A DNA stretch of 40,335 nucleotides, taken from IMG/VR virus record IMGVR_UViG_3300006735_000072, positions 1 to 40,335 of that record. One strand, given 5' to 3'. Positions 4,106 to 32,267 of this stretch are shown piece after piece. The notes beneath the pieces were generated by a model. The model ran no database searches. It was not told the origin of the DNA and was given only the letters and a program-made list of their open reading frames with translations. A program made the position numbers and the translations under genes. The first letter of the stretch is position 1. Each line of letters starts with the position of its first letter. The DNA comes from a virus.

Positions 4106-4107
4106 TA

Positions 4108-4833: not shown

Positions 4834-4837
4834 TTAA

Positions 4838-9792: not shown

Positions 9793-9829
9793 TAAAAAAG
9801 AATAAAAAATATACATATAAGCCTACATC

Positions 9830-9846: not shown

Positions 9847-9977
9847 AAGGAGGGAAAAATAAGAAAAAATCTTACAGAGATAATTACAGTAAAAAAATAG
9901 ACGGTAATCATTTTCAAGACTATGGCTTTCTATCTCCTCTTGTTTCTCCTATCGTTGAGCTATTTGGTATAAGTAGT

Positions 9978-11285
9978 ATGAATGAGTTTTTGGGCTATGA
10001 TGACTTAGTAAATGATCCTGATTTTGAAAGTATATATCAGATGGGTGTAGATCAACAAGCAGATGCTGCAGGTACAGGTACAGATATGGCAACTGGCATA
10101 GCAGCTGGCACATATGGTCTTGATGCAGAGGGTGAACTTGATTTACAATCTGTAGGCACACTTCAAGATCAAATTGATAATATAGGTATAGCTAGACCTA
10201 AGAAAACTTCTACTGAATTTACGGAAGGTATAAAAGATACTATAAGTCAACAGACAACAGGTGTTTTAGGTGAGATAGGAAAGACGGGTAAGATGACAGG
10301 AATACGAGATGTTATGCAATCTGCTGATCAAGCATTTATAGGAGCTCAAGAGAAAGCTGCTGGAATGGATGAGAGATACCAACAACAGCTAACAGACATA
10401 GAAAAATTTGAAACTGGTCAAGTATCTCAATTAGTTGGTCAACAGGCTCAACAGCAGTTTGGTGCAGAGTCATCATTATTTGATTTAGCTGGAGATTTAG
10501 CTGCTCAGTCAGCACAGGCAGGTGGTGATTTATCAGCGTCAGCATTAGCAGGTATAGTGGAGCTTCAAGGTCAAAACGTAGCTGCTTGGGGAGATCTTAT
10601 TTCTGGAGGTTTGGAGGCTATTCTTGCTGCAATTAATCCATTTGATTTTGATAGTGATAAGAAATTAAAGAAGAATATTGAAAAGGTGGGAGAAACTGAA
10701 TCAGGCGTTCCTGTTAGTGATTTTGAATACAAAAAAGATAAAGACGCTCCAGAGGGTCCTGGTAGATATAGAGGTGTTATAGCACAAGATCTTATGGGGA
10801 CAGAGCATGAGGGGGCTGTATCGAAAAAAGATAAAGGAACTTTAAGTGTTGATTATGGTCAGTTAGATGTACAGCTTCAAAAAATAGAGGAAGAGGGTAA
10901 GAGAATGAAAGCTGAAAATGGAGCTAAAATGCAGGAGTATGAGGAAGGAGCAAAGCAAGATATGATGCCAGCGGAAGAGGCTGATGTAACTCCAGGAAAG
11001 TTTTCTCACAAAGAAAATCCTATTGATATAGTTCAAGATGGAGAAAAGATAGGAGAAATGACTGGTGGTGAGGCTATTATGCCTGTTAAAGACGTAAAAA
11101 TATTTGAAGAATTATTAGCTGAAGGAGATAAAGATGGTGTGTTTGATAAGCTAGAACAATTATTTAATAAATGGGATCGTAAAGCTGAAATGCATAAAGA
11201 GAAGGATTTAGACCAAAGAGAGGCTATGGCTATGGGTGGAGCTAAAATGCGTTACCAACCTAAATCAACAATAAATTATAGATAA
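9978..11285 (+). CDS. Virion protein with S74-type intramolecular chaperone domain
   Basis: The protein has 435 residues from the first ATG. Residues 1-220 are Gln/Ala/Gly-rich helices. Residues 226-300 show the Peptidase S74 (intramolecular chaperone autocleavage) pattern: SDKKLKKNI at 226, then GVIAQDL near 266 and VDYGQLDV near 291. In known members the chaperone trimerises the upstream domain and cleaves itself at this Ser, here S226. About 135 residues follow the core, including NPIDIVQDGEKIGEMTGGEA, so the domain is not at the extreme end as in classic tailspikes. The frame is open upstream to 9774 with coding-like sequence (KYTYKPTSSVKYGKGG…) but no ATG, GTG or TTG, so the true N-terminus may be longer. 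It is the first gene behind the promoter at 9761-9792. Confidence 0.75.
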   Translation: MNEFLGYDDLVNDPDFESIYQMGVDQQADAAGTGTDMATGIAAGTYGLDAEGELDLQSVGTLQDQIDNIGIARPKKTSTEFTEGIKDTISQQTTGVLGEIGKTGKMTGIRDVMQSADQAFIGAQEKAAGMDERYQQQLTDIEKFETGQVSQLVGQQAQQQFGAESSLFDLAGDLAAQSAQAGGDLSASALAGIVELQGQNVAAWGDLISGGLEAILAAINPFDFDSDKKLKKNIEKVGETESGVPVSDFEYKKDKDAPEGPGRYRGVIAQDLMGTEHEGAVSKKDKGTLSVDYGQLDVQLQKIEEEGKRMKAENGAKMQEYEEGAKQDMMPAEEADVTPGKFSHKENPIDIVQDGEKIGEMTGGEAIMPVKDVKIFEELLAEGDKDGVFDKLEQLFNKWDRKAEMHKEKDLDQREAMAMGGAKMRYQPKSTINYR

Positions 11286-13363: not shown

Positions 13364-16300
13364 ATGGCAGTAGTATATCAAAAAGATAAAAACGCTATTA
13401 GATTCGTTGCAGATTTCTACAAGAAGTTTAAGCCTAATCATAAGCTTACTCAGGTTGAGATTGACTCGATCTTTGCCCAGTACGATGGTGATTATGAAAC
13501 CATGGTTAAAGACATTTACGGTGCACTAACAGAATACACACCTAGTGATAGTGACATAACAAGTGTAATTAACCGTTACGCTTTAAAAAAAAAAGATTCG
13601 GCAAATGGTTTATTAGAATCGGCAACTGGAGAATCGGAGCAATTAGAAATAGACGAAAATAAAGAGGGTTTTACAGCTGAAGATGGAGCCTTTGTAACTG
13701 ATCTTAATTTAAGTACAGACGAAGAAATACATAAAGGTTTAGAGGGTGCGAAAGCAGGCACTTCAGCAACTCTCAATTATAAAACTAAAGAGCCTAGAGT
13801 TTTAGAGGGTAGACAAGATTATCCTATACATGTTTATGCAGATGGCGGTTATCAGGGTGTATTGAAGCCTGGGGGTAAAATGAAAACCTCTCCAGCATCT
13901 AAAATAGTAGAAATTCCAACTGACAAATACTTTAAAGCACAAGATGGAGCCATAGTTCCTAATGAAGAAAATAATCAAGATGTGAGCATCGAGAATGAAG
14001 AAGATGTTTGGAATTATGATTATATACTAAAAACTTTCACTAAAAACGGATCTCCTGTAGATGCCTCACAAGTTCCTATTAATATTATGGGGGATCTAAA
14101 GATAGATATACAAAATCAACATGATCTTCAAAAAAGAGAAAAATCAAGAAATGATGCTGAGATTCAAGCAGGGTTAAAAAATGTAGAGTTTAACCAAAAC
14201 TTTGAACAATTCTACGGACAAGAAGGTGACTTAAATTTCTACAAGGCAGCACAGCTATACGCTGAAAACCCTGAAAATTTTAATCTCCTATTAGAGAGTA
14301 CAGAGGAGGGTCAATTTGTAGATTATGAGGGTATGCAAATACCTTTAACAACATCTATATCTGAAAGTGGGAAAGATTTAATATCCGCTGCTAATCCTGA
14401 CACCAATACATTTTTCCATGAAGTGCCCGTAGGTGGAGGTTCTAATGAAGAAATTTTATCAGAATACGGAATAGAGTCAGGTCTTGTTACGGGGGATGAA
14501 AATCAATCATTTCAATCTGTAGATGATGACGGTTTAACTCAGTATGAGACTATTTTAAACATGGATAATCATATGGCTAGCTTATTAAATCAAAGGAGCG
14601 AACTTGTTGGTGGTAAACATGTATATAAAGAGGATAAGAAATCAAAGTTTTTAAGGCCAAAAGCTCTGTATGAAGAGGGTGTAGACCAAACAACGACACT
14701 TGGAAATATAAATTACAACACGCTTAGTGAGGATCAGAGATTTCAATATGAAAAATTAACAGAACAGATAAATAATGTTAAAGGAGCTAAAGCTAAATTA
14801 AATGTACAATTATTAACATCTTCCAATAAACACGGTGTAAATGACGTAAAAACAGCTTATGGTGGATTAAAGACTCATGAGGATAGAGTATCTTTTTTTA
14901 ATAGTAGTAGTGATCAAATAAACGATAAGGTAGATAGGTCTGAAAGTTATCAAATGAACTTAGTTGTAAGTGAGTTAAAAAATGAAATACAACAAGATTT
15001 AAGTGATGAATTTTCTGTTGACACAGAAGCTAAAGATCTTTTACAAAAATATCAAACCAATAAAGGGATAAAATTCAAAGGCCCTGAAGAAATGCTTGGA
15101 GATAAGGTTTTTATGAATCTTTATAGTGACTTTCAGAAGAGTAGACTTAACAAGATTAATATGACTATTGCTGATATAGATTGGCAAAATGAAGAAACTT
15201 TTAAAACTCAAGTTAAGCTAAACGCTTCCTTAAAAAATATAAACAAACAACTTGAAAGGTTAGAGTTACAAAAGGAGAATGAGAAAATAGATGAGGATGA
15301 ATATATTGAACAATCAACTAAATTAAATCAGCAAATATCTATTCTTAGAGAAAAAATGGAGGAGAATAGGGGAAAAAGAGGTTACGAGAGAGGTACGGAA
15401 ATGTTTACAGAAACGGGAGAGAGGATAGAAGGACCTGTAGCTACAGAAGAAGATAAAATTATTCAACAGCAAATAACAAATAAAGAGGCAGAATTTATGC
15501 AAGCTTTAAGTCAGGCTGAGGATTATGGTGCGTTTGTTGATAAATTAATGAGAGCTCAAGATGGTTTATACTCTACTGAGTTAATGAATCAGGATATATG
15601 GAAGAATGAAAAAATGACTCTTCCTAGTGGTAAAGAGATGACTCTAGAGGAGATGTATAGTTTTATACAGGCTCAATCTGGTGATACAGGTGCTCTTTGG
15701 AGTCTAGGTATTGGTGGTGGAGCAAAGGAGTTGAGAGAGCAATTTGACAGCGAAGCTGAAAGAAATACTGGTGTTATTGGTTTAAGGCAACAGCTAAGAA
15801 CTATAGATAAGTCAATCCCTATGATGATAGCTAAAAACTTTGGAGAGGGATCTAAGGAAGATGCTGTATTTATGATTGAGATGTTGAAAAATTTTAAAGG
15901 TAGGTATTATGAGAATCAAACTCAGTTAGTAGCTATGTCTAATGTATTAACATTCAATGTTGATCCAGGAAAAGAATGGGGGGAGAAAACTGGAGCAGGA
16001 TTATTTTTAAGACAAATGTCAGAGAGTTTTGGTCACGCTGTACATAAAAGGCATGTTCATAGCGAGGATGATATGATTAATTACTATGATGATATAGCTA
16101 ATGCCTACGGAATAGAGTTAACAGACCAACAAAAGGTAGCTGGAGAAATAAGTTTAAATGACATGGTGGCTCAAGGTGTGGGTACTACAGTTCCTATTAT
16201 GATTGAAATGATTGCTACTATGCCTTTAGCTGGTGCTGGGTTAAAAACTCTTACCAAAGTGCCTTTGATTAAGAATGCTATGGTTGCTGCTAAAACTACA

Positions 16301-19300
16301 GATGTAGGTAAATTTTGGTGGAATTTTAGTGAGAATGTAGTTAGAGGTGCTGTAGCTTTTGAGATGACATCAGGTGATCAGGCTACATGGAGAATGGGTG
16401 CTGCTGAGGGAGCTACAGAGCAAGTGATGAACTCTTTATTTAAAAGAACTCCTGTAACTAGATCTCTATTAACATTATATAGAAGTTTTGGAAAACCAGG
16501 TGTTAAAGTTGCTACCCTGCCTCCAAGAATCCTTGCGGGTGGTGGTGCTGAGCTTTTAGCGGAGTATTCAGGTGAGTTTGTTGAGAACTTAACTAATATG
16601 GGTTTTAACTGGGAAGAAGCTTTAATGGCTACTGTTGGTCAATCAAGAGACGAAAGGATAAATAAGTTAATGACTACAGCTATTATTTGTGTAGGTTTAT
16701 CTACAGCTTTTACAACTTTAACAGCTAATAGCATAGAACAGAATTTTCAAGACATGCTAGATGGTGGTCAGTTAGGTCCTGAAGACACTAAATTAGTTCA
16801 AGACTTCTTAGGTGTTATGGATGAATATAAAAAATCACCACAAGGAGAACAATTAACATTATGGGGAGATGATGATTTTGACACTATGGTTGGAGAGACT
16901 CCAGATCACTTAAGTGGAGTAAATGGAGATGACGAAGGAGATACTCCTGGAGGTCCTACTATTCCTTTAGGGGAAGGTCCAGGTGGTTTACCTACTATTA
17001 AAGATGAGCGTGATGAAGATATTGGTATGCCAGCTTCTGGCGGTAGACAATTAACTCTTTTTGAAGACGAGTCAGTAAGGAGTTCTGCAGGAAATACAAG
17101 TTCGGTTAATCCTGGAAATAGATTATTTAATGACCCAAACCCAGAAACTTCACAAATAGCAAAAAATTATATAAATACTAATTCTCCTCAGATTGGAGTT
17201 CAACATTCAGATGCTACTCCAGTAACTGATATTAACGAAGAAAACTCTAAAAATATAGCTGATGCATATGAGGCTATGGAAAATAACCCTAACGATCCTA
17301 AAGTTCAGAAAGCTTACACAGCTCTAGCTAATGAAACACAAATGCAATATCAAGAATTAATAAATGCTGGCTATACCATTGAAGTTTACAACGGTAAAGG
17401 AGAGCCTTATGCTAATAGTGACGAAATGATAAAAGATGTTAGGGATAATAAGCATTTGTATATATTTGGAACAGAAACTGGTTTTGGTCAAGGTCAGATT
17501 ACAGATCAAATGAGAGCAGAAAACCCCTTGCTTCAACCTACAGAATTTCAAGATGTTAACGGTAATCCATTACTTGTTAATGATTTATTTAGAGCTGTTC
17601 ATGATTTTTTTGGTCATACAGAGCTAGGTAATGGGTTTGGAATCAAAGGGGAGGAAAATGCTTGGCTTAATCACTCTAGAATGTTTAGTCATGACGCTAG
17701 AAGAGCTATGACAACAGAGACTAGAGGTCAAAACTCATGGGTTAATTTTAATCAAAAGTTAAGAAGAGAAGATGGGAGTATGCCTAAGAAGGGAGATCCT
17801 GATTATGTAAGACCTCAAGATAGACCTTTTGCAGACCAGAAAATAGGATTACTTCCTGATGAGTTTGTATTCCAACAACCATCAACGCCAAGTGTTACAG
17901 CTGACCCAGCGGTAGAAGTTACTCAAGATACTCCATTTAAGTATAATAGATCTAAAAAGGTATACGAGGGAACTGTTAATAACAAACCATTTGTAATAGC
18001 TAAAAGATATGGTAAACAAGAATGGATAGAAGCTTTGTCTGGAGAAGTGTTAGGAAGAACTAAAAAAGAAGCTATAAAAACTTTAAAGTTAGCTATGGAA
18101 GGTCCTGTGGCTATGGATCTAATGGAGTCTACTGATCAAATAACAGAAGAGTTAGCTGGCATAATAGATTTAATAAATGCTTCTACAAATGCTCATGATT
18201 CTGATGTTGATCCGAATACAAAATCTCCAGAAAATATAGAAAGTCTTGTAGATAGAACAATTAGAGGTATTGACTCAGAATTAGATAGAATAAATCGAAA
18301 TAGAGGTAAGAACCTGTATATGGACGTAACTATGGGGTTAGGACCAGTGGCGTGGGAAGCCTTCTTAAAAGCTTTAAAAACAGGCTTAAAAGCGGGACAG
18401 AGTGTTTCCGTTGCTTTCAATAAAGCTGTAGAGTCTATAAAAGGATTAGATGAATTTAAGGAAGAAAGTATAGAATCTCTTAAGAAAAGGTTCTTATTTA
18501 ATAATGATGGTGTTGTTAAGTTTGCTGAGGAAGCTATAATTAATAAAGTTACTGCACCTAAATTTCTTGAGGCTTTACAAGAGAAATATCCAGATCAGTA
18601 TAACGAGATAGAAGCTAAAGAGATATATAAAATAGCTAAGTTAAGAGTTAATCCTAAAGTTGTTAGAAGTAATTATACTAGAAGTGAACTTAAACAAATA
18701 GATAACTTACAAAACAAAATAGATCAGCATAATAATGTTGACATGAAAAATGATCGTAGCTTATCAGATCCTATGCAAATATTATTTGACGGAGGATTTG
18801 TAGTATTAAAGAATGGTAAACCTGTAATAAAAACTCTTCCTTTTAATTTTAATGGAGCTCCTATATTCCAAGGATTAAATGAGCAACAAAAAATAGAATT
18901 AGCTTCAGATTTACTTATACAGGATTTTAATACAAACAGCTCTAAAATAGATTTAGAAAGAGCTACAGGTTGGTATAGTAAAACAAAAAACTTAATACAA
19001 CAGAAGTTTGGTGGAAATGCACCAATATTCTTCGAGCTACTAGGCGTTACATCTCCACAAGCACCACCTCAAGTTAACTTTAGAAAATCTACTGAAGTTT
19101 TAAGATCTTATTCAGAGGGTAAGTTTGATGAATCTTTAGAGATATACGATAATAAAGTTAAAGCTATAATGGCTCAATATGATCAAGGTGTTTTTGGTGT
19201 GGGTAAAAAGGCTGTAATAAAAGCTAAAGAACTTATAAAGCAAGCCTCTTCTGATCAAGATGTTGTGGCCGCTATAAAAAAGAAAAACGGAAAGTCATTC

Positions 19301-22300
19301 GGTCTTCCAGTAGTTACCTCAGGTATTGTTAGAGTTTTATATGGTAATTGGCTATCTAATAATCCAGCTAATAAAACAGGACAGTTTTACAATAACTTGT
19401 CTTTAAGAGATAGAAGTGCTACTATTGATGTTTGGGCTGCTAGGAATATGAGAAGAATAGTATATTCTCAAGGAGGTTTTGTACCATTTAGAAGAAGACA
19501 ATCTCAAGAAACAACAGTAGGTAATAAAGATTTTTCTTTTGCACAAAGTGTATATGCTGTAGCTGCTAAGAAGCTAAACTTAAACCCTGACGACCTACAA
19601 GCTGCTATGTGGTTTATAGAAAAACAAATATATGACGAATCTGGATTTAGTGGAACTGATAGAACTGGAGCAGCTAAAGATCAAGCAACCATGGAAAACG
19701 CTGTAAATTCTGCTAAGATAACAGATAGAGTTATGGTGGGTGCTAGCACCTTTATAGGTAATACAAGTCCAGAACAGAAAAACAGAATATATAGTGCTAC
19801 AGCTAGAGCTATACAAAAAGCTTTAGAAAGAAATGCTACTGACGAAGAGATTGCCGCTGTGATAGCAGAGACTATGCAGGGTTCTGTAAGAATGGATCAA
19901 GCACTTCAAAACTTAGACGCTGTAGTTTCTTTATTAGGTGCTATGGGTAGACCATATCAGTCGGAAGGTATATATATGAATCAAACAGAAGATACTATAA
20001 ATTTAGAAATGTTAGTTGATGCTGGAACAGATTTATCTCCTTTATTTGATGAGCTATTAAATACAGCTATTAACAATGAGCAAGAGTCTGTGTTTGCATC
20101 TAAAGTGACAACAAAACAAGATCCTAACGCTAGACCTTTTAGGAGAATAGAGTTTGACTCTCCCATGACACTTACTGATGCTAGAATGTTTGCTAATGAG
20201 CATTTTGGGCCTAATGGTGTAGAGGGATTAACTCTTAATTACAATCAAGAAGGTGAGGTTACGGGTATGTCAATGCAATTTGTTCCTGAATATTTAATGG
20301 AACCTATGGGTGAGGGTTTAACGATGGAAAATATAAAAGAATATGAGTCAAGATGGGAGGATGGTGCAAATAAAGCTATAAGAGAAATACAAGAAAAATA
20401 CGGTGAAGATATTTTTAATACCGTAGAAAATGGATATATTAACACAAAAGTTTTTACAAATGGGGAATACGAAACAACTACAAGACAAGAAAAGTCGTTT
20501 GAAACAGACATCAATAGAGAGCTTGCCAGAAGGCAAAGAGCTATTAATAGCGGGGACAACGCCCAGGACATCTCTGATCTCAGAACAGGAGATGAATATT
20601 CTAGCGGAAGCGTTCAGCGTTTTCAAATCTTAACAGATTTTGCAGACAAATTAGATCAGATATATAAAGATTTAGGTGGTAATGCTTATGCAGATCCATT
20701 TATGTCAATTCCTATTATTAGAGCCGCCCTCAAAACAGCTTCTATTACCCTTAGAGCCACTTCTAGTGTAGCTAAAGCTGTAGATGCAGCTATAGATTAC
20801 TTAAATAGAGCTCAAGCTGATGGGGATAAATTTATTCCTAATCAAGAAGCTGAGATAAGAGAATTATTCAAAAATTTCCTATCAACACAAGAAGGGTTGT
20901 TTAACCCTAAAGATCCTGGAATGTCTGGAGAAACTGAACTGACAGAAGAAGAAGCATCTCAACTTGAAGAGCAAGAGGCTCGTTTACAGGAAATGAGAGA
21001 AAGACGAGTTCTTGAGATGATTGACGCTTTAAATTCTGATATAGACCTTAAAGATTGGACGGATGCAGACTACTCAGAAACTTTAGAAGAGTTACAGAAA
21101 GATCAAGATGCAGCATTCTCTAGGGGTAAAGATAATTTCTTTGGAAGGTTAGCGGATTTTAGAAGGTCTTTAGACAATATGTTTGTTAAATTAAAAGAGC
21201 AAACAGTAGATACTAAATTTAGAATAAAAAGATCTATTAGAAATATAGGTAAAGATTTAAATCTTAGTGAGACAGCTTCTAATGCACTCGCATCTATAAC
21301 TCTATGGTTAACGGTTCCAGGTACAGCTAAAGAACTTATAGATCAAGCTAATAAAAAAATATGGGGAGCTTTATCTTCTGCTCAAATAAAACTGGTAGGT
21401 CAACTATCTACACTTGAAAGAATAATAGAGCTTGATAATTTATCTGACGCTCAAAAATCAGCAGCTGATGCTATTGTTAAGAACTTAAATATTTTATCTA
21501 AAAAACTTGGTAAAGCTAAAACAAAAGAGGAAAAAGCCGCTATAAAAGAACAAATAAAACAATCTGAAGCTCAAATAGATAACATATATAAAGATAACTC
21601 CAGTGTTAGTGTCAAGAAAAACGAGGATGGCTCAGGTTATTATTTAGAATATGTAACGAAAGATAAGAGTGGAAAAGATCTTTTTATTAAAATGAAACCT
21701 GGTATAGCCTCAATAACTAATCCAACTACTAAGAGTAAGGTTTGGCCTTGGAGGATGAAGCATCCAGAGGTTAAAAATCCTAAAGGAGAAGGTTATGTCA
21801 TGATGAATAAAGAGATTGCTGAAGGTATGATTAACAGCATGAAGTTGAAGGAAGGTGATGGGTTTAAAGTTATTAGAGAGACTACAGATAAATTATTTGA
21901 AGAATATCGTAATGAGTTAAAAAGAAATTTTGAAGCGGGGTTAATAGATGAGGCAACTTATAATGAACTTAAAGATCTTAAATATAACCCTAGAAAGTTT
22001 GTTGATCACGTAATATTTACGGAGAGAAACTTGAATGAACAGAGGAAATCAGGTCGTGCTAATAAGGGTGATCATTTAGAGTCTCCTTTACAAATGTTAA
22101 AACAGGGTAGTGATCAGGTTCTTTTTATGGATCCAGTTAAGTTATTACAAAACACATTAGCTATCGGAGCTAAATTAAGAGCTGAGAATGAGGTTAGAAG
22201 AGGTATATATGATATAATATCTCAAGCTACAAAGAAGGGGTTTGAGTACGTTAATGGAACAAATATGGCTGTAGAGGAAATAGGATATATACTAAAAGAC

Positions 22301-24841
22301 GGAGAACAGGTGAGACCTGGATATGTGGAAATGAGCTATAATGAAGGTGGTAAAAAGATTAGGTTTGCCATGAAAAATGCTTCTTATGAAAGTTTATTTG
22401 CTCATCCTAGAGAAATGGTTCCTGCTGGGGATCAACTTAACATGATAACTGGACCCTTAAAATGGGGTGGTAGTATGCTTAAAACATTTGCTACTGGTGT
22501 TGGTGCACCATTTTTCTTTATTGCTAACGTGTTTTATGATTTTGCTCAGCAAGTTATGTTTACAGACACCTATAACGGTAATTGGTACGGATCAACTCTA
22601 GCAACAAAATTCGGAATAGCAGCTTCAGATTGGTTATCTGTAATGAAGGATGCAGCAACAAATGGACCACTTAGCCAGGAATATAAGATGCTTGGAGGTT
22701 CTTTAGAATTTATGACTAGATACGGATTAATGGATTACTCAACAGATTTATTGGTAAATGAAAAGGAGTTGTCAGAAAGAGTTAAAGAGATAATGTCTAA
22801 TCCTGAAAACAAACTCAATGAAGATCAGGCTAGAGATCAAGCTATTCGAGAACAAGTGAGTAGAATGTATGGTGATAACGCTCCTTACACAAACCCTAAT
22901 ACAAAAAGTGGATGGGAGATAATTAAAAGAGTTGTGTCATCTATGAACTCAACATCTGAAATGACGGGTAGATTAGCTAATACTCGTAGATGGACTAAAA
23001 AATATATACAAGAGTATAAAGATAAAAACGATGGTCAAGAACCTACGGGTGAGGATCTTATACAAATCAAGAAAAGAGCTGTGGCTAATGCGGTTGATTA
23101 CGCTAACTTTAATAATGGGGGGAAATCTATTAAGTTTTTTGATTCTTTAGGGTTTGCTTACCTTAATGCTGCATCACAAGTTCTTGATAAGAGTGTTAGG
23201 TATGTTAGTGAAAATCCAGCTCAATTCGCTTGGGATGCGGCACAATGGGCTGTAACATTTGGAGCTGGTATAATGGCTTACAACTTGCAGTATTTTGATA
23301 TCTTAGATGAGGACGAAGAAGAAAGATTACAGAATAATTTAAATGATGCGATAGAGAGTGGGGATAATAAATTAGAGAAAAGGATAAGAGAAAAGCTGTA
23401 CAAAAACAGAAGATACTTTATAAATCATATTAGCGATTATGATATGGAGAATTATCACTGTATAATATTACCTGGTAAAGTTACAGATATAGTGAGTCAA
23501 GAGAAAGAAATAGCTTTACAAGATCAATTAAAGATTGCTGAAAGCATGCCTATAGGGGAGGATAGAGATAAAAGAATAGCTGAAATTAAAGAGCAGTTAT
23601 CTGATAATAGAGTTGTAACTCCTAGATATTTAAAGATACCTAGCGATGCTAGAATAAATGCTTTTAGAGTTGGTGTTGAAGATCTTACGTTTAAGCATAT
23701 TACTGGATCTAACTACAGGGTTCAATCTGAAGACGCTTTATCATTTACTCCGTGGGGTAGAGGTGATGAGAAAAATTCTTACGGTAGAATATTACAGAAA
23801 GCTATACCAGCTGGTGGTGGTAATCCTAGGGATTTAGTAGCTTCAAATCCTCTCCTTAATGTAATATTAAAAACAACTCAAAATTATGACGCTTTTTACA
23901 ATAGACCTATATGGAAAGATTATAATGAAGGTGCTAATGGGTATACTCAGTATGAAGGTTCTTTTGATAAATATGAAGACAAGTGGCTAAGAGATTTATC
24001 TAAGAGACTTGATACAATGGGGTTGTGGGAAGGAGGTTTTCCTATTACAACTACAAAATCAGTTTTAAGTTCTTTATTTACCAATATGGATAGAAACCCA
24101 GTTAACGCTATAGTTAACCATAGTTATGTAGCTGCTACTGGAGGTCTTAATGAGTATGAGAAAGAACAATATGGAAATCAAATGAATATGTTTTTAAATG
24201 ATGTTTTAGGCCCAGTAACAAAAAGGTATGTTGGAGATATTGATCTTCTTAGAAATCAAAAATCTAAATTACAAGCTGAAGCTGATCATATGAGAGAGAC
24301 AGAAGATAGATTCCAAGCTAACTTAAGGCTTTCTTATCAAGCTGTTATAAACAAGAATGGAATAAGAAAAGATCCTGACACAGGAAATTGGATAGATGCT
24401 GACGGTAAGGTTATGAGACTTGAGGATTCAGATGGAGATGGATTATATGATGCTAAAGACTTTTTCTTATCTGAATCAGACAGAGTAATAAATCAAGTGG
24501 AGGATGAGCTTAGAGGTAGATTGGGTGAAGATGAGATTATAGATCAAAACTTATGGAACGTGGAAGAACAGAAAAAGCGAATACATAGAATGGTTGTTAT
24601 GGATTGGAAGTATGGTGAAAACAGTTCTGATATTCAAAGGGCTATTATAGATTTTAAACAAGGTAATAAAATGACAGCAGCCTTTATGATATATCAAATA
24701 AGAAAAGAGTCAATGGGTGACTCGCAACAATATAGCTCTTTAATGAAGACTATTAGAGAAGAAAATATAATTTCAGATCCTCAAGTTATGTATATGATGA
24801 AACAATTTGCAATAGCTGATGCTGAAAAAATTACAGAGTAA
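13364..24841 (+). CDS. Giant polyvalent virion protein, probably ejected into the host
   Basis: One 3825-residue frame covers more than a quarter of the window. Modules I can see, in order: an N-terminal 70-residue helical domain with more C/G-ending codons than the rest; hydrophobic stretches at about 938-960 and 1102-1121 that could insert in a membrane; and a phage polyvalent module with HDFFGH at 1413-1418 followed by SRMFSHDARRAMTTETRGQN near 1434. Next is a module with WY at 1870-1871, a SPQ motif near 1896, KTGQFYNNL at 2004 and IDVWAARNMRR near 2021 (DUF7178-like), then long helical regions. An LPD38-like region follows (FATGVGAPFFFIANVFYDF from about 3041, and FLN-type helices at about 3246-3300), and a DSDGDGLYDAKD calcium-type loop at 3688-3699. 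Large virion proteins built from such modules are known from many phages and are thought to enter the cell with the DNA. No protease or polymerase active site was recognised. Confidence 0.8.
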   Translation: MAVVYQKDKNAIRFVADFYKKFKPNHKLTQVEIDSIFAQYDGDYETMVKDIYGALTEYTPSDSDITSVINRYALKKKDSANGLLESATGESEQLEIDENKEGFTAEDGAFVTDLNLSTDEEIHKGLEGAKAGTSATLNYKTKEPRVLEGRQDYPIHVYADGGYQGVLKPGGKMKTSPASKIVEIPTDKYFKAQDGAIVPNEENNQDVSIENEEDVWNYDYILKTFTKNGSPVDASQVPINIMGDLKIDIQNQHDLQKREKSRNDAEIQAGLKNVEFNQNFEQFYGQEGDLNFYKAAQLYAENPENFNLLLESTEEGQFVDYEGMQIPLTTSISESGKDLISAANPDTNTFFHEVPVGGGSNEEILSEYGIESGLVTGDENQSFQSVDDDGLTQYETILNMDNHMASLLNQRSELVGGKHVYKEDKKSKFLRPKALYEEGVDQTTTLGNINYNTLSEDQRFQYEKLTEQINNVKGAKAKLNVQLLTSSNKHGVNDVKTAYGGLKTHEDRVSFFNSSSDQINDKVDRSESYQMNLVVSELKNEIQQDLSDEFSVDTEAKDLLQKYQTNKGIKFKGPEEMLGDKVFMNLYSDFQKSRLNKINMTIADIDWQNEETFKTQVKLNASLKNINKQLERLELQKENEKIDEDEYIEQSTKLNQQISILREKMEENRGKRGYERGTEMFTETGERIEGPVATEEDKIIQQQITNKEAEFMQALSQAEDYGAFVDKLMRAQDGLYSTELMNQDIWKNEKMTLPSGKEMTLEEMYSFIQAQSGDTGALWSLGIGGGAKELREQFDSEAERNTGVIGLRQQLRTIDKSIPMMIAKNFGEGSKEDAVFMIEMLKNFKGRYYENQTQLVAMSNVLTFNVDPGKEWGEKTGAGLFLRQMSESFGHAVHKRHVHSEDDMINYYDDIANAYGIELTDQQKVAGEISLNDMVAQGVGTTVPIMIEMIATMPLAGAGLKTLTKVPLIKNAMVAAKTTDVGKFWWNFSENVVRGAVAFEMTSGDQATWRMGAAEGATEQVMNSLFKRTPVTRSLLTLYRSFGKPGVKVATLPPRILAGGGAELLAEYSGEFVENLTNMGFNWEEALMATVGQSRDERINKLMTTAIICVGLSTAFTTLTANSIEQNFQDMLDGGQLGPEDTKLVQDFLGVMDEYKKSPQGEQLTLWGDDDFDTMVGETPDHLSGVNGDDEGDTPGGPTIPLGEGPGGLPTIKDERDEDIGMPASGGRQLTLFEDESVRSSAGNTSSVNPGNRLFNDPNPETSQIAKNYINTNSPQIGVQHSDATPVTDINEENSKNIADAYEAMENNPNDPKVQKAYTALANETQMQYQELINAGYTIEVYNGKGEPYANSDEMIKDVRDNKHLYIFGTETGFGQGQITDQMRAENPLLQPTEFQDVNGNPLLVNDLFRAVHDFFGHTELGNGFGIKGEENAWLNHSRMFSHDARRAMTTETRGQNSWVNFNQKLRREDGSMPKKGDPDYVRPQDRPFADQKIGLLPDEFVFQQPSTPSVTADPAVEVTQDTPFKYNRSKKVYEGTVNNKPFVIAKRYGKQEWIEALSGEVLGRTKKEAIKTLKLAMEGPVAMDLMESTDQITEELAGIIDLINASTNAHDSDVDPNTKSPENIESLVDRTIRGIDSELDRINRNRGKNLYMDVTMGLGPVAWEAFLKALKTGLKAGQSVSVAFNKAVESIKGLDEFKEESIESLKKRFLFNNDGVVKFAEEAIINKVTAPKFLEALQEKYPDQYNEIEAKEIYKIAKLRVNPKVVRSNYTRSELKQIDNLQNKIDQHNNVDMKNDRSLSDPMQILFDGGFVVLKNGKPVIKTLPFNFNGAPIFQGLNEQQKIELASDLLIQDFNTNSSKIDLERATGWYSKTKNLIQQKFGGNAPIFFELLGVTSPQAPPQVNFRKSTEVLRSYSEGKFDESLEIYDNKVKAIMAQYDQGVFGVGKKAVIKAKELIKQASSDQDVVAAIKKKNGKSFGLPVVTSGIVRVLYGNWLSNNPANKTGQFYNNLSLRDRSATIDVWAARNMRRIVYSQGGFVPFRRRQSQETTVGNKDFSFAQSVYAVAAKKLNLNPDDLQAAMWFIEKQIYDESGFSGTDRTGAAKDQATMENAVNSAKITDRVMVGASTFIGNTSPEQKNRIYSATARAIQKALERNATDEEIAAVIAETMQGSVRMDQALQNLDAVVSLLGAMGRPYQSEGIYMNQTEDTINLEMLVDAGTDLSPLFDELLNTAINNEQESVFASKVTTKQDPNARPFRRIEFDSPMTLTDARMFANEHFGPNGVEGLTLNYNQEGEVTGMSMQFVPEYLMEPMGEGLTMENIKEYESRWEDGANKAIREIQEKYGEDIFNTVENGYINTKVFTNGEYETTTRQEKSFETDINRELARRQRAINSGDNAQDISDLRTGDEYSSGSVQRFQILTDFADKLDQIYKDLGGNAYADPFMSIPIIRAALKTASITLRATSSVAKAVDAAIDYLNRAQADGDKFIPNQEAEIRELFKNFLSTQEGLFNPKDPGMSGETELTEEEASQLEEQEARLQEMRERRVLEMIDALNSDIDLKDWTDADYSETLEELQKDQDAAFSRGKDNFFGRLADFRRSLDNMFVKLKEQTVDTKFRIKRSIRNIGKDLNLSETASNALASITLWLTVPGTAKELIDQANKKIWGALSSAQIKLVGQLSTLERIIELDNLSDAQKSAADAIVKNLNILSKKLGKAKTKEEKAAIKEQIKQSEAQIDNIYKDNSSVSVKKNEDGSGYYLEYVTKDKSGKDLFIKMKPGIASITNPTTKSKVWPWRMKHPEVKNPKGEGYVMMNKEIAEGMINSMKLKEGDGFKVIRETTDKLFEEYRNELKRNFEAGLIDEATYNELKDLKYNPRKFVDHVIFTERNLNEQRKSGRANKGDHLESPLQMLKQGSDQVLFMDPVKLLQNTLAIGAKLRAENEVRRGIYDIISQATKKGFEYVNGTNMAVEEIGYILKDGEQVRPGYVEMSYNEGGKKIRFAMKNASYESLFAHPREMVPAGDQLNMITGPLKWGGSMLKTFATGVGAPFFFIANVFYDFAQQVMFTDTYNGNWYGSTLATKFGIAASDWLSVMKDAATNGPLSQEYKMLGGSLEFMTRYGLMDYSTDLLVNEKELSERVKEIMSNPENKLNEDQARDQAIREQVSRMYGDNAPYTNPNTKSGWEIIKRVVSSMNSTSEMTGRLANTRRWTKKYIQEYKDKNDGQEPTGEDLIQIKKRAVANAVDYANFNNGGKSIKFFDSLGFAYLNAASQVLDKSVRYVSENPAQFAWDAAQWAVTFGAGIMAYNLQYFDILDEDEEERLQNNLNDAIESGDNKLEKRIREKLYKNRRYFINHISDYDMENYHCIILPGKVTDIVSQEKEIALQDQLKIAESMPIGEDRDKRIAEIKEQLSDNRVVTPRYLKIPSDARINAFRVGVEDLTFKHITGSNYRVQSEDALSFTPWGRGDEKNSYGRILQKAIPAGGGNPRDLVASNPLLNVILKTTQNYDAFYNRPIWKDYNEGANGYTQYEGSFDKYEDKWLRDLSKRLDTMGLWEGGFPITTTKSVLSSLFTNMDRNPVNAIVNHSYVAATGGLNEYEKEQYGNQMNMFLNDVLGPVTKRYVGDIDLLRNQKSKLQAEADHMRETEDRFQANLRLSYQAVINKNGIRKDPDTGNWIDADGKVMRLEDSDGDGLYDAKDFFLSESDRVINQVEDELRGRLGEDEIIDQNLWNVEEQKKRIHRMVVMDWKYGENSSDIQRAIIDFKQGNKMTAAFMIYQIRKESMGDSQQYSSLMKTIREENIISDPQVMYMMKQFAIADAEKITE

Positions 24842-24877: not shown

Positions 24878-25951
24878 ATGAAAAAGGACATAAGTAAAAT
24901 ACTTTATATAATAATGATGATAGTGGTATTTGGTATATCCACTGCTTTTAGTCAAGGAGACTTTTTTAAGTATTCCACTTTCTACACTTCAATGACTATG
25001 AACACTCCTTTTGTTGAGAGGGGTGACTATGTAGCTGCAGATAAAGGCTATGAGGATGTAACTCAAGTCCATCCATACGATTATAATTTAACTCTCGGCT
25101 TGAGAAAAATAGCACGATTTGATTATGAATACAAAGTTAAAACATGGTATTATGGAACTGAAAAAGCTGTTGCAGATAATGTTACTATTGGTAATAGCGT
25201 TGGTTGGGAGTATCTACTTAATTATTCATTTATACGTAATCGTGGTGATAAATATACTGAGCAAAATTTCTGGCTTAGATACCTTGGAGATAAATGTGTA
25301 ACAAAAGTTCAGTATAAGGATAATCAGAGAGTTAATTTAAGATATAACTCATTCGATACAAGATTTAGGATTAATAAGGGAAATTGGGATTTTACTATTG
25401 GTGGAGTATTTCGTATGCACCCAGTATATGGTGTCACTCCAATAGAAGATTTCTGGATTCCTGGAGAGTCTACTTTTCAACAGTTAGCAGAGGATTTTGG
25501 ATATGCTCCAGAACAATGGGTTCAGGGGTTTTATGTTAATCAAAACTGGTACGATGTTAGTGGTGGAGACTCCGTTTTGGTCGCTACCTCGAATGATGAG
25601 TTCTTCAACCACTACTTCGGTGATGCAGTGGAAACATATAATGAGAGAGAGTTAGAAAAACTTGGAATGCAGAAAGAATTAAGTGCTGTTATAGGAATAG
25701 CATACTATAAATATACCCCTAAAATGTGGATGCACGCTTGGGTTAATTGCATGCCTGTTCACTACGGAATGGATGAGTATTCATTTGAATATGGTAAAGA
25801 AGATTGGGATAATATGGAGTGGGATGCTGGTATGGTATTTGGATCTAGAATAACCAAGAACTTGGGAATGTTTGTGGAGGGAACTCATATGCGTTATTGG
25901 ATGAAACCTGTATATGAAGTAAAGTTTGGTTTTAACTATTTAATATTTTAA
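24878..25951 (+). CDS. Phage-encoded outer-membrane beta-barrel protein
   Basis: This 357-residue protein has a clear signal peptide (residues 1-25, basic start, hydrophobic core, cleavage after TAFS before QG). The mature part alternates polar and aromatic/hydrophobic residues in short strands (WEYLLNYSF, FWLRYL, VNLRYNSFDTRFRI, WDFTIGGVF, AVIGIAYYKY). It ends in a strand with terminal aromatic Phe (KFGFNYLIF), the usual sorting signal for Bam-assembled barrels. It would sit in the host outer membrane late in infection. The gene is on the late strand, 36 nt after the giant gene and 2 nt before a lipoprotein gene. I recognise no named porin family. A porin-like or receptor-blocking role is possible. 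Confidence 0.7.
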   Translation: MKKDISKILYIIMMIVVFGISTAFSQGDFFKYSTFYTSMTMNTPFVERGDYVAADKGYEDVTQVHPYDYNLTLGLRKIARFDYEYKVKTWYYGTEKAVADNVTIGNSVGWEYLLNYSFIRNRGDKYTEQNFWLRYLGDKCVTKVQYKDNQRVNLRYNSFDTRFRINKGNWDFTIGGVFRMHPVYGVTPIEDFWIPGESTFQQLAEDFGYAPEQWVQGFYVNQNWYDVSGGDSVLVATSNDEFFNHYFGDAVETYNERELEKLGMQKELSAVIGIAYYKYTPKMWMHAWVNCMPVHYGMDEYSFEYGKEDWDNMEWDAGMVFGSRITKNLGMFVEGTHMRYWMKPVYEVKFGFNYLIF

Positions 25952-25953
25952 TT

Positions 25954-26145
25954 ATGAAAAAACTATTATTCTTATTGGTACTATGTTCAGGGTGCTCAAT
26001 GTTATTTAATCCTGATAATTACAATCCAAACCCCACCCCAAAACCTATCGTTGAGGAGCCAAAAGATTCAATTAGGGTTGATACTATAAGATTAACAAAC
26101 GGTATTGATCATATTATTATGTTAGATACAGTAAAAATAAAATAG
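25954..26145 (+). CDS. Small Pro-rich lipoprotein
   Basis: This 63-residue protein has a short signal peptide and a lipobox-like LCSGC, giving Cys14 as the probable lipidated residue; Cys instead of Leu at -3 is non-standard. The mature part begins Asn/Pro-rich (NPNPTPKPIVEEP), as in outer spanins. It ends with two DT[IV] units (RVDTIRL, MLDTVKIK) like those of the next gene's repeats. It lies 2 nt from each neighbour, between the barrel protein and the T9SS-like protein. It could be an outer-membrane anchor or partner for the stalk protein, or an o-spanin; the shared DT[IV] motif favours the first. Confidence 0.6.
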   Translation: MKKLLFLLVLCSGCSMLFNPDNYNPNPTPKPIVEEPKDSIRVDTIRLTNGIDHIIMLDTVKIK

Positions 26146-26147
26146 AT

Positions 26148-27065
26148 ATGAAAAAACTATTAATAATATTATTTGCTTTCATTAGCTCTTTAACTTACTC
26201 TCAGCAATATGATTTTGAAGCTATATGTTTAGCTTGTGCTGAAGCAGAAGGTTTTTATTGTGGTGATGATCCCACAAACTGGACTCAATATTCTCCTAAT
26301 GGTTGTGTTCAAAACTCTTGGATAAACGATGGATGGGTGGACTGTGTTGATGCTACTGATGAAGGAGAAGATGTTGTTCCAACATCCCCTGATGAATGTG
26401 CTCCTCCCCCACCACAATGTGACACTATTTATGTGGATGTTCCAGTAATAGAATATGTATATGAAACTGACACAGTTGAAGTTGAGGTTCCTTTTTACAT
26501 TTATGAAACAATCATACAGCTAGATACAATAGTCGAGACGGAATATATAACTCAGATTGTTATAGATACTATTATTGAAACACAGCTAGACACAATTTAC
26601 AACACAGAATATATAACTCAAATAGTAATTGACACTGTGATTCAGGAGGTTGAGGTTTTTGTTCCTGAGTATATATATGTTACAGACACTGTATATGCGG
26701 AGGTGCTAGATACTATGTTTATAGATGTCATACAAGAAGTGGAGGTTGTTGTATATGATACTATAGTTGAAACAGAAATTGAATATGTGGAGTTTTTTGT
26801 TACAGATACTATTGTTCAGTATGATACTATAGTAAACACAGAATACGTTGAAATATTTGTTATTGATACTGTAGTAGAATATATTGAGGTTGTAGAAATT
26901 GAATATATAGACTGTGACACTGGTTTACCTTGCGGATCTGGAATGGAAGAAATATTAGATAAATCTATTAATACTGGATTGTTATACGATCTAAACGGGA
27001 AAGCTATAAGAAAAACAGAAGGAATATATATAAAAAATGGTAAAATTAAATATTTAATAAGATGA
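26148..27065 (+). CDS. Exported repeat-stalk protein with type IX secretion-like C-terminus
   Basis: 305 residues. Residues 1-18 are a signal peptide (cleavage after TYS). Residues 22-90 form a Cys-rich domain containing DGWVDCVDATDEGED, reminiscent of the DCxDxxDE calcium loop of LDL-receptor class A modules. Residues 90-262 are a stalk of Thr/Val/Ile/Glu repeats with recurring DT[IV]. Two 22-residue copies starting QLDTI lie 66 nt apart (26517 and 26583). The last 28 residues (YDLNGKAIRK, then GIYIKNGKIKYLIR) match the T9SS type-A C-terminal signal, which directs Bacteroidetes proteins across the outer membrane to the surface. It is coupled to the next gene by ATGA. The host T9SS would presumably export it. 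Function unknown; adhesin-like or surface-blocking. Confidence 0.7.
   Translation: MKKLLIILFAFISSLTYSQQYDFEAICLACAEAEGFYCGDDPTNWTQYSPNGCVQNSWINDGWVDCVDATDEGEDVVPTSPDECAPPPPQCDTIYVDVPVIEYVYETDTVEVEVPFYIYETIIQLDTIVETEYITQIVIDTIIETQLDTIYNTEYITQIVIDTVIQEVEVFVPEYIYVTDTVYAEVLDTMFIDVIQEVEVVVYDTIVETEIEYVEFFVTDTIVQYDTIVNTEYVEIFVIDTVVEYIEVVEIEYIDCDTGLPCGSGMEEILDKSINTGLLYDLNGKAIRKTEGIYIKNGKIKYLIR
26517..26648 (+). repeat. 66-bp tandem repeat in the stalk protein
   Basis: Two adjacent 66-nt units encode nearly identical 22-residue segments (QLDTIVETEYITQIVIDTII and QLDTIYNTEYITQIVIDTVI). Synonymous differences between the DNA copies are common, so the duplication is not recent and the protein sequence is maintained. 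More diverged DT[IV] units follow to about 26910. Confidence 0.75.
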
Positions 27066-27655: not shown

Positions 27656-27868
27656 ATGAATATATTTAAAGACGATAATAATTGGAATGAAAAGGCTATA
27701 ATTGGTTTTGTAGCTTTTATAATAATGTGTATAATAATGATCGCTGACCTAGCAACTGGATGGTATGGTTATGACCTAGTTATAAATGAGTTTGTATATG
27801 ATTCGTTTGTTTGGGTTGTCCTTGGTTGTTTTGGTATCAGTGGCGTAGAAAAATTTGCTAAGAAATGA
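27656..27868 (+). CDS. Two-TM small membrane protein, holin-like
   Basis: This 70-residue protein has two hydrophobic segments (about residues 14-34 and 45-62), a short charged N-terminus and a basic C-terminus (VEKFAKK). Size, two-helix layout and a position among envelope and lysis genes fit a class II holin or a holin accessory protein. Its TGA overlaps the ATG of the next gene. A second holin candidate lies at 31869-32267 on the other strand, so this one could be the antiholin or pinholin. Sequence alone does not decide. Confidence 0.55.
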   Translation: MNIFKDDNNWNEKAIIGFVAFIIMCIIMIADLATGWYGYDLVINEFVYDSFVWVVLGCFGISGVEKFAKK

Positions 27869-28482: not shown

Positions 28483-28764
28483 ATGAAAGAAATATCAGAA
28501 GATTCAAAATTTCAAGTAAGCCTAAAAACATTAGGTGGAATATCTATGTTAATAGCTACATTAGTTGGTATGTGGTTTACGCTACAAGCTGATATAGATG
28601 AAGCCAAATTACTTCCTGAGCCTCCTAAACCAGAGGTTACTCAAATGGAGTTCAAAATGAAAGATGAATATATAAGAGCTTCAATTCTAAAAACAGAAGA
28701 GGATGTTAAGGAAATAAAAGATGACATTAAATATCTTAGAGATAAGATGGATAACATGAAGTAA
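28483..28764 (+). CDS. Single-TM coiled-coil protein, inner-spanin-like
   Basis: 93 residues: a short polar N-terminus, one membrane helix (about 16-35, GGISMLIATLVGMWF), a Pro-rich linker (LLPEPPKPEV) and a charged heptad-patterned C-terminus (about 60-93). One N-terminal anchor plus a periplasmic coiled coil is the layout of an inner spanin, and the lysis-gene context agrees. The lipoprotein at 25954 could be its outer partner. A holin-regulator role is equally possible. No named family recognised. Confidence 0.5.
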   Translation: MKEISEDSKFQVSLKTLGGISMLIATLVGMWFTLQADIDEAKLLPEPPKPEVTQMEFKMKDEYIRASILKTEEDVKEIKDDIKYLRDKMDNMK

Positions 28765-28765
28765 T

Positions 28766-29158
28766 ATGAAATATTTAGACTTAAAATTATTAGTAGTATT
28801 TATATTAATCCTTATCATAGGATCTAAAGCTACGGGACAAGAGTTTATTAATCAAGATAATTTTAACCAGAAAATAGCTAAAGATATAGTGGCTGTAGAA
28901 TTTTGGGTTGAATGGAACTCTTCTAATGAATTTGTTGATCTTTCAAATTTAAATGACTGCTCAAAGTATAGGATTGACATAGCTGAATATCCTGATCTTC
29001 AAGCTAAATACGAAGTAACTTGTATACCTACTGTTATTATATTTGAGAGTGGAGAGGAGAAAGAAAGATTTAAAGCTAATATAATGTTTGAACTTGAAGC
29101 TGATAAAAAAGAAGTGCAAAAAAGCATTGATCAAATCATGATCGCAAAATTCAATTAA
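28766..29158 (+). CDS. Periplasmic thioredoxin-fold protein lacking CxxC
   Basis: 130 residues: a signal peptide (1-24), then a thioredoxin-like core. AVEFWVEW (43-50) corresponds to the VDFWAEW strand of thioredoxins, but the following CGPC is replaced by NSSN (51-54). The cis-proline loop is kept (CIPT, Pro88), followed by VIIFESGEE. Cys65 and Cys86 are the only mature cysteines, neither at the active-site position. It therefore keeps the fold but should not be a dithiol oxidoreductase. It may bind a partner, like thioredoxin as a processivity factor, in the periplasm. It lies 1 nt from each neighbour in the lysis/envelope cluster. Confidence 0.65.
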   Translation: MKYLDLKLLVVFILILIIGSKATGQEFINQDNFNQKIAKDIVAVEFWVEWNSSNEFVDLSNLNDCSKYRIDIAEYPDLQAKYEVTCIPTVIIFESGEEKERFKANIMFELEADKKEVQKSIDQIMIAKFN

Positions 29159-30944: not shown

Positions 30945-31442
30945 ATGGAACTTGAGGTAGTAAGGTTTTCTAGTGAGTCTGATTCTACGAATGGGATTCT
31001 ATTTGACTCTAGCAATAAACTAGATGGTAGAAAATTCTTATGTTACACTCTAGAAGATGAACAGAGAGACAAGAAGGTTAAAGGGGAAACTCGTATACCA
31101 GCGGGATCTTATAAAATTAAGGTTCGGAAAGTTGGTGGATTCCATGCAAGATATTCTAAAAAGTTTGGTAAAATGCATCGTGGCATGCTTCATGTCACCA
31201 ATGTTCCTGGTTTTGATTATATACTCATTCATTGTGGTAATACTGATGAGCACACGTCTGGGTGTCTACTTGTTGGGGACTCGCAGGAAAACAACCAAAT
31301 CAAGAAGGACGGTTTTATAGGTAAATCTACTCAATCTTATAAGAGGGTATATGATTATATAATGAAGGCTATTGAGTGTGATGATAGTGTTACAATAACA
31401 TATATAGATTTTGATTCACCATCCACACCTATTAGTTGTTAA
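30945..31442 (+). CDS. DUF5675-type protein (L,D-transpeptidase-like fold)
   Basis: This 165-residue protein starts directly after the preceding stop codon. The pattern IHCGNTDEHTSGCLLVG (His96, Cys107) with an earlier TLEDE and RIPAGSYKIKV matches DUF5675, a family frequent in phages and resembling YkuD L,D-transpeptidases, whose catalytic Cys lies in a HxGN…GC arrangement. It probably acts on peptidoglycan peptides, either as an endolysin or virion-associated enzyme. No signal peptide is seen. It is the last plus-strand gene and is followed by the hairpin terminator at 31541-31563. Confidence 0.75.
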   Translation: MELEVVRFSSESDSTNGILFDSSNKLDGRKFLCYTLEDEQRDKKVKGETRIPAGSYKIKVRKVGGFHARYSKKFGKMHRGMLHVTNVPGFDYILIHCGNTDEHTSGCLLVGDSQENNQIKKDGFIGKSTQSYKRVYDYIMKAIECDDSVTITYIDFDSPSTPISC

Positions 31443-31868: not shown

Positions 31869-32267
31869 TTATTTACTTTTATTATTGTTTTTATTACTTT
31901 TTATTTTCTCGATTGATCTACCAGCGAAGTACGCTGAGTATACTACAAGTAGGAGCTGGGTGTAAATTGGACCGTACATTGGATTCATTTTAAACTCCCC
32001 TACATTACCGTCAAAGAATGACATAACTACCAGCATAATAGTTAAAAAAGCTAGAGTTAGAGGCCTAATATTAGCTGGTAACCATCCCGCTTTAGCGTCA
32101 GCCTCCCATCTTCTAGTAACTTGCTCTTGAGCGTTCATCTGAGACTTAGCTATAAGCTCTTTCATCCTCAATTTTAAGGACATCTTTTCCTCTTCTGTTG
32201 TTACACACTCATCTATTATAGTTGATGCGTTTCCTATTAAACTTTTAAATATGTCTCCTAGTATCAT
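31869..32267 (-). CDS. Holin, GTA/3TM type
   Basis: 132 residues. A helical N-terminal half with RRWEADAKAGWLPANIRPLT is followed by hydrophobic segments (about 62-85 and 96-117) and YFAGRSIEK near the end. The order RW-x-AD…W…(V/I)RP-L then two or three membrane helices then GRS-(I/V)EK is the signature of the 3TM-type (GTA) holin family. It should form inner-membrane lesions releasing the murein hydrolases. Unexpectedly it lies on the minus strand, opposite the other lysis genes, overlapping the nuclease gene upstream by 23 nt. Confidence 0.75.
   Translation of the reverse strand: MILGDIFKSLIGNASTIIDECVTTEEEKMSLKLRMKELIAKSQMNAQEQVTRRWEADAKAGWLPANIRPLTLAFLTIMLVVMSFFDGNVGEFKMNPMYGPIYTQLLLVVYSAYFAGRSIEKIKSNKNNNKSK

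Follow-up and report, generated by a model that had tools for sequence, protein, structure and literature searches.

A conserved phage protein with an LDLa-like head and a C-terminus resembling short type IX secretion signals, encoded beside a predicted outer-membrane barrel

A gene of the virus record IMGVR_UViG_3300006735_000072 (40,335 bases; the entire record was analysed and is called the window here) encodes a protein, hereafter the cargo, which is conserved among related phages, carries an LDLa-like head and ends in a tail akin to the short tails of host proteins; its gene is paired with that of a predicted outer-membrane beta-barrel. The host range, timing, secretion, cleavage, barrel partnership and function of the cargo are what we infer from the gene evidence. 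In our main reading, to which we assign a probability of roughly 0.58, the cargo would be a phage-encoded client of the host type IX secretion system (T9SS), displayed at or shed from the surface of the infected cell alongside the phage barrel. Since a T9SS-like tag and a neighbouring phage barrel are both present, the phage probably places the cargo on the surface of the infected cell. The cargo would be exported by Sec, and its last ~43 residues, which look like an abbreviated targeting tag for the host T9SS, would act as a short signal composed of Motif B (YxxxG), Motif D (GxYI) and a basic Motif E. This signal would be recognised by the host translocon (SprA) and by PorV, allowing passage to the surface, and the tail would probably be cut off by PorU. 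What would remain on the cell surface, or be shed from it, is an LDLa-like head, predicted to bind calcium and borne on a stalk whose length varies; this product may act together with the phage outer-membrane barrel encoded upstream. The likeliest use of such a product would be as a display module for masking or altering the cell surface, by receptor blocking or superinfection exclusion. The features of the locus are listed in Table 1.

Table 1. Position of the cargo gene, its parts and neighbouring genes in the window
Feature	Position	Strand	Basis or remark
Cargo gene: signal peptide, LDLa-like head, DT[IV] stalk and putative short T9SS-type C-terminal signal	26148..27065	+	305 aa
Sec signal peptide, residues 1-19	26148..26204	+	Sequence; Q19 in all 58 rows
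Degenerate LDL-receptor class A head, C27-C84	26226..26399	+	Pfam, family profile, AlphaFold
DT[IV]-repeat stalk, residues 92-255	26421..26912	+	Length varies across the family
Short T9SS-type C-terminal signal (putative), residues 263-305	26934..27062	+	Profiles, motifs
Motif B, Y280-DLN-G284	26985..26999	+	Y 70/71, G 71/71
Motif D, G292-I-Y294-I295 (GxYI)	27021..27032	+	G 61/71, Y 70/71, I 71/71
Phage outer-membrane beta-barrel protein (predicted), 357 aa, signal peptide, C-terminal Phe	24878..25951	+	
Small lipoprotein, 63 aa, DT-containing C-terminus	25954..26145	+	Lipobox by inspection
Small two-TM protein	27656..27868	+	tblastn match in 55/96 loci; TM by inspection
TM and charged coiled-coil-like protein	28483..28764	+	83/96 loci (tblastn); TM and coil by inspection
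Thioredoxin-like protein with signal peptide	28766..29158	+	PF00085 E 4.4e-8; 82/96 loci (tblastn)
DUF5675 protein	30945..31442	+	PF18925 E 7e-28
Holin	31869..32267	-	phrog_3427 E 5.8e-21

The open reading frame of the cargo proved to be as the earlier note on this DNA had described it, with a Sec signal peptide, a Cys-rich head and a DT[IV] stalk. It starts 2 bp past the stop of the upstream lipoprotein gene. By inspection, the N-terminus (MKKLLIILFAFISSLTYSQ followed by Q) is a Sec signal peptide; the stalk holds 12 DT dipeptides within residues 92-241, and the C-terminal end is YDLNGKAIRKTEGIYIKNGKIKYLIR. In the AlphaFold model, built from a 58-row alignment (mean pLDDT 50.8), the head and the tail were confident and the stalk was unfolded, with a pLDDT mostly of 22-30 and no predicted fold. 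Genes matching 'virion structural protein' PHROGs are located upstream of the cargo (window 1581-11285), and the DUF5675 gene, the minus-strand holin gene and a primase/helicase gene are located downstream; this position between structural and lysis genes suggests late expression. The best named matches of the primase/helicase came from a sewage phage and then from Tenacibaculum and Cellulophaga phages, and Flavobacterium phages were the most numerous among its matches (172 of 857 records), which suggests a Bacteroidota host. The same genes were carried, at 100% protein identity, by a 54,783-base IMG/VR contig. Two further observations concern the genes upstream. The DT motif of the stalk recurs in the short C-terminus of the small lipoprotein, for which tblastn found a match in 10 of 96 loci, and a 3,825-aa open reading frame at window 13364-24841 gave two PHROG matches only, both of unknown function.

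Relatives of the cargo were collected from IMG/VR, where 227 of them were recovered with an alignment of 16 sequences and 18 loci with the single protein. The best 80 of the 227 relatives were fetched. All 94 viral loci encode the cargo, several of them sharing one contig, and 79 closed distinct cargo proteins were left after duplicates, one open frame (L063) and two cellular loci had been removed. A signal peptide pattern ending in [SAG]Q was present in all 79. Whereas the length of these proteins varied from 168 to 314 aa, the C-terminal block was kept at 50-53 aa in every one of them. Moreover, dN was lower than dS in four of four pairs, for head, stalk and tail alike. A tblastn search of the cargo and the barrel against the 'phages' collection gave no match at E<=1, and no T9SS match was found for the window cargo in Pfam, NCBIfam and PHROGs scans.

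The head contains the cysteines C27, C30, C38, C53, C66 and C84. Residues D61, D65, D71 and E72 were invariant over 58 rows, and correspond to the D, D, D and E calcium ligands of LDLa modules. Pfam Ldl_recept_a matched 14 of 16 members at E<=10, with a best E of 4.2e-4; the window cargo reached E 1.6 and 9.5 bits against PF00057, far under the Pfam cut-off of 24.1. When the 58-row family profile was compared with the PDB, 27 distinct sequences were matched at E<=1 (best E 0.0078), of which 26 are LDLa-containing molecules and the other is an S-layer protein. The head was modelled by AlphaFold with a pLDDT of 72-88. Like PF00057 modules, the phage head has the D-G..D-C-x-D-x-x-D-E calcium loop and most of the Cys framework; unlike them, it has an invariant Asn60 at the usual position of the fourth Cys, by which the six-Cys framework is broken (assignment by eye), and the window cargo scores well below the Pfam cut-off. 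Judged by its sequence, the head belongs to the LDL-receptor class A type, in a degenerate form that keeps the calcium ligands. One scan of genome contigs gave two cellular relatives of the head. The Neomarinimicrobiota protein contains LDLa-like repeats, one of which is near the phage head. The Crocinitomicaceae protein, the better-scoring of the two at 48% identity, is 1,123 aa long from its ATG, holds two head copies together with PKD and Kazal domains, passes PF00057 at 26.8 bits and ends in a canonical T9SS CTD (TIGR04183 E 6e-9, PF18962 E 7.6e-9); 53 PF18962 matches were found in its genome. The constancy of the head suggests that its partner is conserved too and is not a receptor differing between strains, and the variable stalk suggests a spacer.

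The earlier note had read the C-terminus of the cargo as a T9SS type-A signal and had named the type-A family HMMs and an AlphaFold model of the tail as checks. Both checks were run. PF18962 and TIGR04183 gave nothing at E<=10 in the window cargo and in 16 of 16 members, and a seven-strand Ig-like beta-sandwich was absent from the modelled tail; therefore, the long-CTD test, as worded beforehand, fails. The tail model consisted of a helix at residues 266-276 and short strands, with a pLDDT of 79-88 over residues 271-305; strands were placed at 293-296 and 299-302 and two-residue bridges near 279 and 286, a three-stranded sheet, as predicted for short CTDs, not being clear. Against a profile of 30 long CTDs, the tail reached a probability of 10% over 18 columns that covered Motif B only, and 2 of 200 shuffles did equally well. 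Nevertheless, a short CTD is not refuted by the failed long-CTD test, because the short form, as described in PMC11969387, has no sandwich.

According to that paper, 48 of 80 predicted T9SS cargo proteins of Prevotella intermedia carry short signals, 40-55 aa long, in which Motifs B, D and E occur. The short CTDs permit cleavage and attachment in P. intermedia, with cleavage sites determined for five, and in AlphaFold models of two pairs the short and long CTDs dock on PorV alike; P. intermedia is given there as the sole species reported to have both long and short CTDs (PMC11969387). Earlier work had mapped a T9SS signal to the final 22 residues of a CTD (PMC4804311). As for the phage tails, all 71 distinct ones extended for 42-45 aa after the last Cys-containing block, or for ~40-43 aa from an assumed cleavage point, and on that assumption they fall within the 40-55 aa of short CTDs. 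Motifs B and D were found at the frequencies given in Table 1; the former was accompanied by K or R at alignment column 28 in 62 of 71 tails, and the latter reads GIYI in the window cargo. In the basic Motif E, K was found at column 39 in 59 of 71 tails and at column 41 in 55 of 71, no column being absolute; the Motif E of P. intermedia has one basic residue that is absolutely conserved, as is the Gly of its Motif B (PMC11969387). The Gly of Motif B and the Gly position of Motif D were separated by seven residues in 71 of 71 tails; the published motif spacings of short CTDs are 6-11 aa and 1-6 aa (PMC11969387). The phage tails resemble the short CTDs of P. intermedia in the 40-55 aa block, in Motif B (Y..G plus a basic residue), broadly in Motif D (GxYI) and the basic Motif E, in the N-terminal signal peptide (by pattern, 79 of 79 closed distinct members) and in having no beta-sandwich. 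They differ in three respects. Firstly, the protein is here encoded by a phage. Secondly, the Gly of Motif D, which is absolute in the P. intermedia short CTDs (PMC11969387), gives way to Ser or Asp in 10 of the 71 phage tails. Thirdly, the putative cleavage motif is S-[SGNA]-I, with Ile in 53, Met in 9, Leu in 8 and Val in 1 of the 71 tails and with PT absent, not the PT/GI motif with Ile at +2 given for P. intermedia in the same source.

The kinship of the phage tails to host tails was examined by profile searches. A host-only profile of 15 short-tailed host proteins was run against 2,253 open reading frames of the phage loci and the window. All 22 matches at E<=0.1 were cargo (22 of 94 open reading frames; 19 of 79 distinct; best E 1.9e-7), nine cargo open reading frames (seven distinct) were found at E<=0.001, and the top non-cargo match stood at 0.28. 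None of 100 column-shuffled decoys of this profile matched the cargo at E<=0.1. The window cargo was matched marginally, at E 0.2, over residues 264-300; E exceeded 0.1 in 57 of the 94 cargo open reading frames, and 83 of the 94 reached E<=10. The host-only result is supportive and not independent, because its host tails had been obtained through a partly phage-derived profile. A phage-only profile gave five matches at E<=0.01 in 150 genomes, four of them in the last part of signal-peptide proteins (by inspection). After trimming, it gave eight matches in 150 genomes of the order to which the host of L095 belongs, namely two short tails, one long CTD and five that were noise; the best (E 7.3e-6; ASGIEEM...YDLLGREL...LYIQNGKKLFRIE) ends 6 residues before the C-terminus of a signal-peptide protein that the untrimmed profile had matched as well. 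A column-shuffled decoy gave 10 matches at E<=0.01 in 150 genomes of the same order, all at the C-terminus of one protein family, with a best E of 3e-4; single tail matches above ~1e-4 therefore mean little. The family matched by the decoy is a MurA-like enzyme family.

A mixed profile of 13 phage and two host tails was also run, and 31 matches at E<=0.01 were obtained in 299 genomes. All 30 that were examined lay in C-termini that are T9SS-like by eye: 17 were short (two of them seeds and several closely related), three were intermediate and 10 were Motif B of long CTDs. Of the 30, 25 showed a signal peptide pattern, and some of the others were cut by contig ends. A phylum-wide tail search gave at least 41 matches, and the 30 loci examined comprised seven T9SS long CTDs, seven members of one TldD-like FYIENGK family, and 16 others. 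Ten of the short-tailed host genomes contained 36-124 PF18962 matches each, and PorV was present in 9 of 10 genomes searched, including 7 of 8 short-tailed ones. No T9SS match was found by Pfam and NCBIfam in three short-tailed host proteins tested; that host short tails go unrecognised in PF18962-rich genomes is explained by the short CTD form described in PMC11969387. Taken by sequence alone, the family tail is similar to T9SS signals above chance, and the similarity is to the short type, not to the PF18962/TIGR04183 type. Thus, of the T9SS-type C-terminus put forward in the earlier note, the relation to C-termini of secreted proteins in T9SS-bearing Bacteroidota stands and the assignment to the type-A families does not. 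Among the host loci, L162-L173, L175, L178, L179, L187 and L191, which belong to one Bacteroidota order, encode small secreted proteins of ~170-210 aa ending in short CTD-like tails. Phage-tail and long-CTD profiles run over the open reading frames of the phage loci gave no further convincing cargo.

The gene upstream encodes a predicted outer-membrane barrel. The AlphaFold model of its product (mean pLDDT 75.6) has 12 strands of >=8 residues and a long loop helix. The best structural matches were Tsx, EstA, KdgM and NanC, with Z of 13-14, and the outer-membrane barrels listed by Foldseek and VIA-align included EstA, FapF, NanC, Tsx, OMPLA and autotransporters, with FadL at Foldseek rank 43. 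Among viral models, A0A516LKJ4 came closest, at 29% identity. PorV or PorP/SprF was not among the 50 matches listed by each of the two programs, which proves nothing. By hhalign, the barrel appeared to be a PorP/SprF relative (61.5%, with 0 of 60 block-shuffles equal), and the value fell to 0.27% once the signal peptide was removed; this reading was rejected because the aligned core was the signal peptide. No Pfam match to PorP/SprF (PF11751) was present in 58 barrel members at E<=1. The barrel was likewise rejected as a relative of PorV (PF19572), with hhalign values of 0.10%, and 0.11% without the signal peptide. In L011, L012, L067, L069-L071, L083 and L085, the N-terminal signal sequence of the barrel holds a lipobox-like SCA and, after it, a second site, KCC[AS]Q.

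The pairing of the two genes was assessed with barrel-only searches, in which the best 80 of 246 and the best 80 of 188 relatives gave 120 distinct barrels after duplicate removal. The cargo was found downstream of 115 of the 120, the other five lying at contig ends with <=136 bases left. The gap between the genes was 1-4 bp in 81 of the 115 and up to 1,494 bp in the rest, and a loose form of the tail pattern was present in 115 of 115 paired cases. This close pairing favours a rather improbable alternative, in which the tail would dock on the phage's own barrel, not on PorV, so that the two proteins would form a dedicated exporter/anchor pair with little or no need of the host T9SS. The long loop helix of the barrel and the FapF secretion channels among its structural matches also fit such docking, and the type B cargo of F. 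johnsoniae needs a cognate barrel from the adjacent gene (PMC12618676). However, the same kind of tail is found on host proteins, and a search for barrel relatives in 150 genomes of the host order came out empty, a result that is uninformative alone for want of a positive control. Furthermore, a mirror-tree comparison of barrel and cargo over 63 loci showed no excess co-evolution (r 0.26 and 0.40, vs 0.42 and 0.44 for neighbouring genes), and the profile comparisons without the signal peptide argue against kinship of the barrel to PorP/SprF or PorV. A bolder version of the surface-display reading, which we hold to be doubtful though conceivable, is that an obligate pair of barrel and calcium-module stalk would hijack the T9SS via a minimal signal, invisible to current T9SS models, across a widespread family of Bacteroidota phages, the barrel being a dedicated shuttle or anchor by which the stalk protein is retained at the surface of the infected cell.

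The cargo could also be a spanin-like periplasmic or outer-membrane lysis component, in which the beta-prone stalk and the tail would break the outer membrane together with the lipoprotein, coiled-coil and DUF5675 proteins. The nearby holin and DUF5675 genes, the TM coiled-coil protein and the thioredoxin (Table 1) are in keeping with this role. We consider it improbable, since the cargo shows no lipobox or C-terminal TM by inspection, its head is akin to that of a surface-type bacterial protein, its tail matches secreted host proteins, and the lipoprotein was found in only 10 of 96 loci. Equally improbable in our view is a plain periplasmic protein whose T9SS-like C-terminus is convergent and unused. 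The standard models remain unmatched, the weak matches are noisy, and the window cargo itself reaches no better than E 0.2 with the host-only profile, all of which would fit an unused resemblance; against it stand the constancy of the C-terminal block over 79 proteins of widely varying length and the failure of all 100 decoys to match the cargo. A virion fibre of the tail or head bearing repeats is very improbable, since its one pointer, a match to the tail fibre phrog_6320, is at chance level (E 0.47) and all 79 closed members carry a signal peptide.

The surface-display reading has a precedent in the phage T9SS cargo described for Cryophage in 2020, for which takeover of the host system and, possibly, a part in superinfection exclusion were proposed (PMC7468147); crAss-like phages also carry T9SS sorting domains (PMC6949934). 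Cryophage and the present family are alike in that phage gene products bear T9SS signals. In Cryophage, type A sorting domains are borne by a PA14 protein and by enzymes that vary, whereas here one conserved LDLa stalk protein has a short signal and an adjacent phage barrel. In the F. johnsoniae system of type B CTD cargo and PorP/SprF (PMC12618676), the gene of a surface protein likewise adjoins that of an outer-membrane barrel; however, the phage barrel is upstream and not downstream, is not related to PorP/SprF by profile, and is paired with a type-A-like tail. The small lipoprotein Llp of phage T5 acts on FhuA and stops re-infection at the outer membrane (PMC9586334). Superinfection exclusion like that of Llp is the function we prefer for the cargo, at a chance of about one in three, and the analogy would lie in the possible effect only, Llp being a small lipoprotein. 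In the literature searched, which left most subscription journals outside, no account was found of the family, of short signals in phages or of the paired barrel; PMC10013915 and PMC13269007 mention the T9SS of bacteria alone. Phage T9SS cargo has precedent, and a short phage signal or an obligate barrel partner is apparently unreported in that literature.

If the surface-display reading is true, the host's secretion machine for gliding and adhesion serves hundreds of environmental phages as a means of covering infected cells with a single conserved protein. Short T9SS signals, reported from one Prevotella species, would then extend to other Bacteroidota and to their viruses, and current annotation would therefore miss a class of T9SS cargo. 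The tail would be of interest as a small and portable signal.

That the tail may be a module able to move between proteins is hinted at by a second secreted phage protein, which was found via position and pattern. At L087:7017-7529 and L008:341-853, a Cys-containing protein of 170 aa is encoded between the barrel and the cargo, the two copies sharing 73.5% identity. Its body is unrelated to the cargo, a signal peptide is present, and it ends in a motif-like tail, YIDTFGRQHIVPPKGLSIKDGQKYFRL. The L087 protein was similar to the L008 cargo in the signal peptide and 15 tail residues only (E 0.004); with the cargo of its own locus, the signal peptide alone aligned (E 0.92) and the tail did not. 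Its tail gave no significant match with the profiles (E 1.7 to 10), and a pattern search of 3,326 distinct open reading frames gave no further signal-peptide protein of this kind. Another insertion between barrel and cargo was observed at L045:7286-7993 and L064:7286-7993, where a 235-aa protein without a signal peptide is encoded; by its EIDIFE motif, this protein looks like a family 16 glycoside hydrolase.
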